A program made the position numbers and the translations under genes. Positions 2,722 to 5,689 of a stretch of 5,689 nucleotides of DNA are shown here, in pieces (the stretch's first letter is position 1; each line of letters opens with the position of its first letter). The DNA comes from Thioalkalivibrio nitratireducens (GTDB lineage: Bacteria; Pseudomonadota; Gammaproteobacteria; Ectothiorhodospirales; Ectothiorhodospiraceae). The notes below the pieces were generated by a model. It was given only the letters and a program-made list of their open reading frames with translations. It searched no databases and was not told the DNA's origin. The DNA lies in assembly GCA_011390385.1 (NCBI GenBank), contig JAABSN010000213.1, forward strand, positions 1 through 5,689, written 5' to 3'.

Positions 2722-2809
2722 AGTGGCGCCACAGCGAGCGACGGAGCCAGTAGCAACGCCGTGGCACATGCCGCCAACGACCATCACGCAAATCGATGAC
2801 GAACGTTAT

Positions 2810-2814
2810 GGAGA
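2810..2814 (+). promoter_or_regulatory. Shine-Dalgarno sequence of the dsrC-like gene
   Basis: GGAGA ends 8 nt before the ATG at 2823. This favours 2823 over the upstream in-frame ATGs at 2796 and 2808. The first would add nine residues, MTNVMEKCL, which are not a normal DsrC/TusE N-terminus. Confidence 0.65.
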
Positions 2815-2822
2815 AATGCCTT

Positions 2823-3161
2823 ATGGCCATCGAACTCAAAGATACCACCCTGCCCACCGACGAAGAGGGCTACCTGATCGACCCCGAAGCCTGGACGCCC
2901 GAAGTGGCGGAGCGCGTCGCCGAAGAGGAAGGCATCGCACTCACCGACGAGCACTGGGCGGTGATCCGGTTTATCCGCGACCACTACGAAGAACACCAGG
3001 TCGCCGTCGACGCCCGCTACGTCATCCGATTCCTGGACGAGAAATTCGGCTACGGCGACAAGGCGCACAACCACCTGTTCGAGCTGTTTCCCTACGGCTA
3101 CGTGAAGCAGGCCTGCCGGATTGCCGGCATGCGCCGCCCGCGCGCCTGGAGCACCGGCTGA
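2823..3161 (+). CDS. DsrC/TusE-family sulfur-relay-like protein with CysB only
   Basis: The family consists of small cytoplasmic sulfur carriers: DsrC serves dissimilatory sulfur metabolism and TusE passes persulfide in tRNA 2-thiouridylation. The protein has 112 residues from the ATG at 2823. Family features are DEEGYLIDPEAW (13-24), EEGIALTDEHWAVIRFIRDHY (35-55) and the C-terminal arm FPYGYVKQACRIAG (89-102). Cys98 corresponds to CysB of DsrC. CysA should lie 11 residues later as the penultimate residue, but Trp109 (TGG, 3147-3149) stands there, followed by S-T-G. TusE normally keeps CysA and lacks CysB, so this protein has the opposite pattern and is not simply TusE or canonical DsrC. A cysteine-poor regulatory or structural DsrC paralogue (RspA-like) is possible. 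It sits 237 nt after narI and 27 nt before the parvulin gene, probably co-transcribed with the latter. Family is certain; function is unknown. Confidence 0.9.
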   Translation: MAIELKDTTLPTDEEGYLIDPEAWTPEVAERVAEEEGIALTDEHWAVIRFIRDHYEEHQVAVDARYVIRFLDEKFGYGDKAHNHLFELFPYGYVKQACRIAGMRRPRAWSTG

Positions 3162-3188
3162 ACTGCATTCCAACGGAGGAACGAATCG

Positions 3189-3962
3189 ATGACGATATCC
3201 GTGAACGGCGTGGAGATCCCCGATCAGGCGATCCACAGCGAGATGCAGTATCACCCCGCCGGAACCCCTGATGCCGCCCAGTACCAGGCGGCTCGAGCCC
3301 TGGTGATCCGCGAGCTGCTGCTGCAGGAGGCCCGGCGCGGCGAGGTGAGCCCGGCTCCGGACGCGGAAGACCCGGAAGAAAGCCTGATCCAGGCATTGAT
3401 GGACCAGGCGATTCAGGTGCCCAAGGCGGACGAGGCGGCGTGCCGCCGTTACTACGAGACCCACCAGCAGCATTTTCGCAGCCCCGTGGTGTACCACGTC
3501 TCGCACGTGCTGCTCCCCGCGGCGCCGGATGACCATGAGGCACGGCGGGCGGCACTCGCGCAGGCCGAGGCGCTGCTGGCGGAGATCGGCAACGATGCCG
3601 GGCTGTTCATCGCCATGGCGATGAAGCACTCGGCCTGTCCGTCGCGGGATCAGGGCGGCGACCTCGGCCCGGTCACGCGCGGGCAGACGGTGCCTGAATT
3701 CGAGAAGGCCCTGGACCGGATGGCGACCGGAGAGATCGCAACCCGCCCGCTGGAAACCCGCTACGGCGTGCACCTGGTTCATCTGCGCGCGCGCGAGGGC
3801 GGGGAACCGCTGCCGTTCGAGGCCGTAAAGCCCCAGGTCGCCGAATACATGGAACAGCACGTGCTGCGCCGCGCGGTCGCCCAGTACCTGCAACGACTGG
3901 TCGGTGATGCCCGCATCGAGGGCATCGACCTCGAAGGCGCCGAAACGCCGCTGGTACAGTAG
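3189..3962 (+). CDS. Cytoplasmic parvulin-type peptidyl-prolyl cis-trans isomerase (NifM/PpiC-like)
   Basis: This is a 257-residue foldase predicted to catalyse prolyl cis-trans isomerisation. An N-terminal helical SurA/NifM-like region spans about 1-95. One parvulin domain spans about 101-201, with VYHVSHVLLP (101-110), the characteristic HSACPSRDQGGDLGPVTRGQ (147-166), VPEFEKAL (168-175) and RYGVHLVHL (191-199). A helical tail follows to the end. No signal peptide or membrane segment is visible, so it should act in the cytoplasm, unlike periplasmic SurA or PpiD. GGAGGA at 3175-3180 is 8 nt before the ATG. Parvulin genes of this type follow narGHJI in other denitrifiers (Pseudomonas aeruginosa has one between narI and moaA), which suggests a role in folding NarG/NarH. 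That role is inferred from context. The 27-nt gap implies co-transcription with the dsrC-like gene. Confidence 0.92.
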   Translation: MTISVNGVEIPDQAIHSEMQYHPAGTPDAAQYQAARALVIRELLLQEARRGEVSPAPDAEDPEESLIQALMDQAIQVPKADEAACRRYYETHQQHFRSPVVYHVSHVLLPAAPDDHEARRAALAQAEALLAEIGNDAGLFIAMAMKHSACPSRDQGGDLGPVTRGQTVPEFEKALDRMATGEIATRPLETRYGVHLVHLRAREGGEPLPFEAVKPQVAEYMEQHVLRRAVAQYLQRLVGDARIEGIDLEGAETPLVQ

Positions 3963-4048: not shown

Positions 4049-4081
4049 GTAGGGTGCCAATGAGCACAGCGAATTGCGCCG
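4049..4081 (+). repeat. Dispersed palindromic repeat, copy 2
   Basis: The unit starts GTAGGGTGCCAATGAGC and continues through ACAGCGAATTGCGCCG. It aligns to 2690-2721 with a 1-nt insertion and a few substitutions, in the same orientation. The dyad is retained imperfectly (GGTGCCAAT against ATTGCGCC). With copy 1 it brackets the dsrC-like and parvulin genes. Confidence 0.7.
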
Positions 4082-4236: not shown

Positions 4237-4250
4237 TTGACGTGAATCAA
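4237..4250. promoter_or_regulatory. FNR/Anr-type binding site upstream of ubiU'-ubiV
   Basis: TTGAC-GTGA-ATCAA matches the FNR consensus TTGAT-N4-ATCAA at 9 of 10 positions. The box is centred at 4243.5, about 62 nt before the ubiU' ATG. FNR is known to activate ubiUVT in E. coli under anaerobiosis, so the position makes functional sense. No convincing -10 element stands out: CACTAT at 4289-4294 is a weak candidate and would put the box near -57. Anaerobic activation of the downstream genes is inferred. Confidence 0.75.
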
Positions 4251-4305: not shown

Positions 4306-4506
4306 ATGGAACTTGTTTCCCCGGCGGGGAGCCATCCCGCATTGCGAGCAGCAGTCGATTCTGGCGCAGACAGCGTGTATTTCGGTCTGAGGGACGCCAC
4401 CAATGCACGCCGTTTCGCGGGCCTGAACTTCACGACAAGGACGCCGACGGAACTGCCCGAGGGCAGCCAGACAACCCTTGGCGCATACCACAGGCCATGG
4501 CAATGA
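4306..4506 (+). pseudogene. ubiU: ubiU remnant with large in-frame internal deletion
   Basis: Intact UbiU is a U32-family [4Fe-4S] protein of ~330 residues that, with UbiV, hydroxylates ubiquinone precursors without oxygen. Only 66 codons are left here. Residues 1-43 (MELVSPAGSHPALRAA... to RRFAGLNFT) match the UbiU N-terminus. Residues 51-66 (PEGSQTTLGAYHRPWQ) match its extreme C-terminus (E. coli SEGTQTTLGAYHRKWQ). The join lies at about 4435-4456, and roughly 265 codons are missing, including all four Fe-S cysteines and the U32 core. The frame is kept and the TGA overlaps the ubiV ATG. GGAG at 4295-4298, 7 nt upstream, supports the ATG at 4306. The fifth residue is Ser where E. coli has Cys. 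It could be a true deletion, a retained short leader that couples translation to ubiV, or an assembly collapse. It cannot act as UbiU. Confidence 0.88.
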
Positions 4507-5426
4507 ATCCAGCAACCAGTACATCATCGAAGACGCCGCGACTGTCGGTCGGACCCTGCCAGTACTTGTGGCAAAAAGACAGTGTCGAACACTTCTATGC
4601 GGAGATCGCCGACAGTCCCGTGGACATCGTCTATCTGGGCGAGACCGTGTGCGCGAAACGGCGCGAGCTGCGAACGCATGACTGGATCGCCCTGGGCCGG
4701 GAGCTGGCCGCGGCTGGCAAGGAAGTCGTGTTATCCACATTCACCGTGATCGAGGCACGTTCCGAAATGGGTGTGGTGCGCCGTCTCTGCGAAAACGGTG
4801 AATTCATGGTGGAGGCGAATGATGTCGCCGCCGTGCGGGTCCTGCGCGAACTCGGCCTCCCGTTTGCCACCGGACCTTCGGTGAACATCTACAATGGTGC
4901 AACCTTGCGCCATTACCACCGCCTCGGGCTGCGGCGCTGGGTGCTGCCAGTAGAACTTGGCCGCGAAGCGCTGAAAGACATCCGGGCGGAAGCGAAACCT
5001 GCCGATGTGGAGACCGAGGTCTTCGCCTACGGACATCTTCCACTGGCGTGGTCGCCACGTTGCTTCGCGGCGCGGTACCACGATCGGCCGAGGGAGCAAT
5101 GCGGCCTGCTCTGCATCGACTATCCCACGGGCGTCGCGGTGGATACACGAGAGGGGGATCGTTTCCTCAATCTCAACGGTATCCAGGTCGAGTCGGGCCT
5201 GATCTGTGACTTGCTGCCGGTCTGGCGCGATGTTGTCGAAGCGGGAGCCGATATTCTGCGGCTGAGCCCGATGCCGCAGGGTACCCTGGAGTCGATTCAT
5301 GCCCTGCGTCGGGCGATCCTGGGAGATGGGACCGCGCTGGCTGCACGCTCCGAGAATCCGGACCCGATTTGCAACGGCTACTGGTATGCCGATCCCGGAA
5401 TGGTGCGCGCCAGGCCGGCCAAATGA
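4503..5426 (+). CDS. ubiV: O2-independent ubiquinone biosynthesis protein UbiV (U32 family)
   Basis: UbiV is the partner of UbiU in the oxygen-independent hydroxylation steps of ubiquinone synthesis. It is cytoplasmic and carries a [4Fe-4S] cluster. The protein has 307 residues against 292 in E. coli; the extra length is mainly a polar N-terminal extension (residues 1-13). The four cluster ligands are C50 (YLGETVCAKRR) and C187-x12-C200-x3-C204 (AYGHLPLAWSPRCFAARY onward), with the same spacing as E. coli C39, C180, C193 and C197. Other matches are VVLSTFTVIEARSE, LNGIQVESG, ADILRLSPMPQGT and NGYWYADPG. The start at 4503 overlaps the ubiU' stop (ATGA); an ATG at 4497 in the same frame is an alternative. 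There is no good Shine-Dalgarno sequence, so initiation probably depends on translation of the ubiU remnant. The gene looks intact although its obligate partner is destroyed. Confidence 0.95.
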   Translation: MNPATSTSSKTPRLSVGPCQYLWQKDSVEHFYAEIADSPVDIVYLGETVCAKRRELRTHDWIALGRELAAAGKEVVLSTFTVIEARSEMGVVRRLCENGEFMVEANDVAAVRVLRELGLPFATGPSVNIYNGATLRHYHRLGLRRWVLPVELGREALKDIRAEAKPADVETEVFAYGHLPLAWSPRCFAARYHDRPREQCGLLCIDYPTGVAVDTREGDRFLNLNGIQVESGLICDLLPVWRDVVEAGADILRLSPMPQGTLESIHALRRAILGDGTALAARSENPDPICNGYWYADPGMVRARPAK

Positions 5427-5650
5427 GCCGAGGTCCAGAGCCAAATTCCTGACTCCTCCCCGATGGCTGCCGAATCCGTACATCCGATTCTGGTTGTGGC
5501 CAATCGAGTCGTTGCCCACGCCGATGCCGGAGGCACTGGTGGCCCGCGTCGCGCAGCGTCCCCTCTCCCCAGCCCTCGTCCGCATGCAGGAGGCGGGGGT
5601 CAGCAGTGCGCTGCGCGCGACTTTCACGCTAGTTGAGAGCTATACCCATC
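5427..5650. other. Stretch after ubiV with no confident gene
   Basis: No recognised gene or clear terminator was found. One + frame is open from at least 5422 to the window end, with G/C-biased third positions between about 5461 and 5620 (reading PIESLPTPMPEALVARVAQR around 5500-5559). It has no ATG before 5524 and no family match that I know. C-rich and G-rich tracts at 5560-5600 could pair weakly, like a degenerate palindromic repeat. Confidence 0.4.
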
Positions 5651-5689
5651 ATGTTTCGAACCCTGTTCGCGATCGCGTTTCGCCCGTTC
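5651..5689 (+). CDS. Possible start of an unidentified gene (runs off window)
   Basis: An ATG at 5651 opens a frame of 13 codons (MFRTLFAIAFRPF) that reaches the window edge without a stop. GAGAG at 5636-5640 is a modest Shine-Dalgarno candidate 10 nt upstream. The residues are hydrophobic and basic, which would suit a signal or membrane segment or an amphipathic helix. Too short to identify; it could be chance. Confidence 0.25.
   Translation, partial: MFRTLFAIAFRPF

Follow-up and report, generated by a model that had tools for sequence, protein, structure and literature searches.

The stretch of DNA analysed here (5,689 nucleotides, hereafter the window) probably carries a ubiUVT operon that is being lost, in a relative of Thioalkalivibrio that bears narHJI. 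The loss would be caught half-way: two genes of the operon are cut, one is open, a promoter-like site is kept and the nitrate reductase genes are untouched. According to PMC6747719 and PMC10470549, UbiT, UbiU and UbiV are all essential to the O2-independent ubiquinone pathway of E. coli, and UbiU and UbiV form a heterodimer in which each partner holds one [4Fe-4S] cluster; at least two deletions at the window locus would have removed two of the three proteins.

Among the best 80 of the 179 relatives in a UbiV-alignment scan of genome contigs, which were kept as loci, the closest to the window is L001, from a Thioalkalivibrio sp. metagenome-assembled genome (isolate CSSed165cm_158). It resembles the window in the locus and its neighbours, with the same gene order of parvulin gene, ubiU, ubiV, ubiT and nnrS, but differs in that ubiU, ubiV and ubiT, followed by nnrS, are all intact. 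BLASTN identity between the two is 84.6% as far as the ubiU junction, 88.1% between this and the ubiT piece, and 87.9% where nnrS starts, and a global alignment opens two large gaps downstream of the ubiU start. The L001 contig begins inside dsrC, so that any nar genes would lie past its end. A UbiU of at least 300 residues is present in 74 of these best 80 of 179 loci; as to the remaining six, four stop short of ubiV by 66 to 694 bp, and the genomes of the other two, L023 and L049, have a UbiU over the cut-off elsewhere. No UbiU was found in G050, the genome of L009. As a separate observation, the longest contig behind P0123 measures 2749 bases, as does that behind P0003; the UbiU is 98% like that of L001 and the UbiV only 80%. 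If both lie on one contig, this mismatch suggests that the contig has recombined or is chimeric.

The ubiU remnant

The preliminary description had reported a ubiU gene reduced to its two ends by an in-frame internal deletion, and comparison with L001 bears this out. The 66-codon open reading frame at 4306-4506 (forward strand, as are ubiV, the ubiT remnant, nnrS, narHJI and the FNR-like site below) starts with ATG and stops within the ATGA that opens ubiV; it consists of UbiU residues 1-43 (4306-4434, colinear with L001 1227-1355) joined in frame to the last 18 residues of the protein (4450-4506 with the stop), not to about 16 as first thought. The NCBIfam model for UbiU, NF047963, matches residues 1-45 only, over model positions 1-45 (E 2.6e-24); the score of 86 bits, where the cut-off is 440, is below the threshold for a full-length UbiU. 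The 18 C-terminal residues, ELPEGSQTTLGAYHRPWQ, are identical at 17 positions to the end of L001 UbiU, which confirms that this piece, too, is UbiU. The L001 protein has 332 residues and its gene takes up 999 bp with the stop (1227-2225), against 201 bp in the window, where 798 bp, or 266 codons, are thus missing and residues 44 to about 314 of the 332 with them. No cysteine occurs among the 66 residues, so the four-cysteine [4Fe-4S] site of UbiU is absent and its ligands must sit in the missing part; the loss of core and Fe-S cysteines had therefore been read correctly. In E. coli UbiU the ligands are C169, C176, C193 and C232, according to PMC6747719.

Alignment to this close relative defines the junction (4435-4449), the join itself falling at about 4435-4440; by eye, the deletion ends in L001 share a 3-bp match (CGG) and no long direct repeat. 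By chance alone, one such join in three is in frame. The first deletion, of 798 bp inside ubiU, may have stayed in frame either fortuitously or because ubiV remained coupled. Lacking both core and Fe-S site, the 66-residue product is probably without function, and the reading frame is most likely a remnant of ubiU. Situated 55 bp upstream of its start is the sequence TTGACGTGAATCAA (4237-4250), which we take to be FNR-box-like from a pattern search; the pattern also occurs at the matching position of L001. FNR sites upstream of ubiU are on record in PMC11707229.

Could the remnant itself be under selection, as had also been proposed for it? Over its 61 codons, window and L001 differ by 15 synonymous and seven nonsynonymous changes (dN/dS 0.134). 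When the two were placed with four outgroups, the changes (nonsynonymous/synonymous) fell as 4/5 on the window branch and 2/7 on that of L001, with 1/3 unassigned, too few for a test. The window-branch ratio, about 0.25-0.28 by arithmetic from the counts (135 nonsynonymous and 48 synonymous sites), would be intermediate between constraint and neutrality, the value to expect had function been lost late on that branch, small as the counts are. For the first 43 codons dN/dS between window and L001 is 0.185; functional pairs gave 0.008-0.062 in nine of the ten where it was computable, many of them with dS above 1 and hence saturated. The last 18 codons, with five synonymous changes and one nonsynonymous (dN/dS 0.048), look constrained. 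Of the 120 UbiU proteins that were listed out of 8000 scored, not one has H10, R36 or P51; these residues of the remnant are derived, at conserved sites, within a frame that has few changes overall. A weak search for short UbiU-like proteins, 36-115 residues long and having three exact 5-residue words in common with the frame, found none. Selection on the short frame is not supported, though the tail of 18 codons would be in keeping with it.

The ubiT remnant and the state of the operon

Accurate as it was in its reading of ubiU, the preliminary description had missed that ubiT is also broken, which turns the puzzle of UbiU alone into the decay of a pathway. The segment at 5443-5559 aligns with L001 UbiT at 3162-3278 and holds its first 39 codons, the codon aligned with the L001 start being no start codon. 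In the global alignment with L001, a gap of about 600 bp runs from after codon 39 to about 90 bp before nnrS (junction 5559-5566), taking most of the gene and most of the spacer; together with the lost start codon, this second lesion extends from 5443 to about 5566. The deletion ends in L001 share 2 to 4 bp, by eye. L001 UbiT carries an SCP2 domain, no Pfam match at E 0.1 was found for window 5299-5688 or 5463-5636, and the window ubiT accordingly has 39 codons with neither that domain nor a start codon. Past the gap, nnrS begins at 5651 and runs off the window at 5689; it aligns with L001 from 3977, where the encoded protein is NnrS (PF05940, 360.9 bits).

Judging from these lesions, the O2-independent ubiquinone pathway appears to have lost two of its three genes at the window locus, a second deletion having presumably covered ubiT and most of the downstream spacer, and illegitimate recombination may have caused the deletions. 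Because UbiU and UbiT are both cut, the locus should not supply the pathway, as had been anticipated from ubiU, and O2-independent ubiquinone synthesis would be absent from the cell. Counting against decay of the pathway are the undecayed UbiV, the retention of the FNR-like box and the constrained look of the last 18 ubiU codons.

The alternative that survives best, improbable though it is, holds that full-length ubiU and ubiT lie elsewhere in the source genome and that the window locus is a decaying duplicate. UbiV and the FNR-like box do look kept, and two ubiTUV copies are present in 4 of 1562 genomes according to PMC11707229; against this, among the 47 genomes of the family to which the L001 genome belongs, UbiV passes the cut-off in 18 and UbiU in the same 18, once per genome each, and no UbiU with H10, R36 or P51 stands among the 120 relatives listed. 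The identity of the two sets of genomes indicates, moreover, that UbiV without UbiU is no normal state in the family. Absences in the family, like those in the genus given below, are soft since genome completeness was not given, and the controls for the UbiU and UbiV genome searches were over the cut-off in one of 14. A little less probable again is that a collapse or a chimera in assembly made both gaps. Assemblies in the protein database may be chimeric, P0126 being perhaps one, with a UbiU that by eye is like L001 in its second half and distant in its first; but the two gaps of the window lie in different genes, separate errors would be needed outside them for the derived ubiU residues and for the missing ubiT start codon, and in L001 the gap ends show no long repeat on which an assembler could have collapsed the sequence.

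ubiV and the nar genes

UbiV is encoded by an intact frame of 307 codons (4503-5426; L001 2222-3142), which matches NF047965 with 350.3 bits, above the cut-off of 275. C50, C187, C200 and C204 are invariant in alignment A1 and fit the [4Fe-4S] cysteine motif CXnCX12CX3C given for UbiV in PMC6747719, C50 being the predicted first ligand; no solved structure matches UbiV by sequence. Between window and L001 dN/dS is 0.214 (0.114-0.237 in 14 other pairs), and the branch counts (nonsynonymous/synonymous) are 11/12 for the window, 18/25 for L001 and 9/16 unassigned. Decay of UbiV after window and L001 diverged was considered and dropped: the assigned residue changes number 12 against 15, with five unassigned, and dN/dS is in line with the other pairs.

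The window carries narHJI, narG lying outside it. The 3' part of narH (2-1180) encodes a protein 95.2-95.7% identical to the NarH of G003 and G004, narJ (1177-1902) scores 124.3 bits with TIGR00684 against a cut-off of 59.35, and narI (1908-2585) is 89.8% identical to the gene after narJ in G003 and G004. Relative to two outgroup genomes, dN/dS is 0.042-0.048 for narH, 0.113 for narI and 0.188-0.197 for narJ. By these ratios, narHJI seem to be under constraint and UbiV seems free of visible decay. Since ubiV is open and normally constrained, and narHJI likewise, the loss of the pathway is probably recent, and ubiV would still be open for that reason. A recent event had been one of the two readings offered at first for the ubiU remnant, and the open ubiV and small numbers of changes point weakly to it.

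UbiV of this clade is nevertheless odd. Out of 94 columns at which 28 other UbiV proteins do not vary, the window departs at 10, P0002 at 9 and L001 at 7; in a leave-one-out control, the 28 others show 0 to 3 departures over 94 to 97 columns. Several of the odd columns of the clade lie near the Fe-S cysteines. Both UbiU and UbiT are intact in L001, so the part of this oddity that L001 shares predates the deletions. For UbiU, with P0126 left out as chimeric-looking, departures from 138 invariant columns number 4, 3 and 4 in L001 and its two nearest relatives and 0 to 4 in the others, and there would seem to be no clear oddity in UbiU to match that of UbiV; the accompanying count of N-terminal residues excluded five reference proteins that lack an initial MEL. 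It is very unlikely that UbiV was kept in the window lineage to serve an independent function, whether or not together with the 66-residue UbiU remnant, freed from UbiU and UbiT and acting alone or with another partner after invariant-site changes in the ancestor common to L001, before ubiU and ubiT were lost: an open frame with its motif cysteines, a dN/dS of about 0.2 and the departures just given would suit such a role, yet L001, whose UbiV is equally odd, has UbiU and UbiT intact, recent loss accounts for an open UbiV equally well, and UbiV without UbiU is seen in none of the 18 family genomes.

Quinone supply in relatives and neighbouring genes

If ubiUVT is being lost, how would nitrate respiration be sustained? 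The loss may be tolerated because O2-dependent hydroxylases make ubiquinone and menaquinone feeds nitrate reductase, relatives having both kinds of genes. In each of four relatives two O2-dependent Ubi hydroxylases (Ubi-OHases) are over the cut-off, and menA is over it in all four, including G018, where neither menD nor menB finds a match. Among 30 genomes of the genus, UbiU is over the cut-off in three, with a piece at a contig end in one, and NarG in two, both with UbiU. Both menB and menD are over the cut-off in the same six of the 30: G001, G003 and G004, which have UbiU, and G019, G021 and G026, in which neither UbiU nor UbiV gives a match. With half of these six lacking UbiU and UbiV, menaquinone may take over electron transfer to nitrate reductase. 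The latter three genomes, which may be incomplete, are also without NarG over the cut-off, and hence give no example of nar kept without ubiUV. PMC10470549 reports ubiquinone made by UbiUVT and menaquinone to be interchangeable in anaerobic nitrate respiration of E. coli. Replacement of anaerobic ubiquinone, another of the outcomes first envisaged, is therefore plausible with menaquinone, as far as menA, menB and menD of the relatives can tell, and if it is true, the locus suggests that nitrate respiration need not retain O2-independent ubiquinone synthesis where menaquinone genes are present. On a side note, menB and menD occur in these six genus genomes even though 825 of 871 men pathways belong to five other orders in PMC11707229.

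Set beside the O2-independent ubiTUV pathway as described in PMC6747719 and PMC10470549, the window is alike in having ubiV directly 3' of ubiU, an adjoining ubiT remnant, an FNR-like box and the motif cysteines of UbiV; it is unlike in the large internal loss from UbiU (residues 44 to about 314 of 332) and in a ubiT without start codon and most of its length. PMC11707229 places ubiU and ubiV at most 500 bp apart in 99.6% of cases, and reports that ubiTUV was lost repeatedly in lineages of Pseudomonadota. The window lineage would resemble these in losing the pathway while its relatives keep other quinone routes, and it differs in that fragments persist and narHJI are kept, so that the locus looks like an intermediate stage of a known process. 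A search of the accessible literature for papers that join ubiU and ubiV with pseudogenes found none.

Two further features of the region deserve mention. DsrC/TusE-like and NifM-like parvulin genes follow narI (window 2796-3962; L102 and L103), and because they do so in G003 and G004 as well, they seem to be a fixed part of the nar region. The window also has a 20-bp direct repeat, with copies 90% alike at 2698-2717 and 4058-4077, both preceded by GTAGGGTGC; L001 has a similar element near 955-985 and another, on the opposite strand, near 3735-3770.
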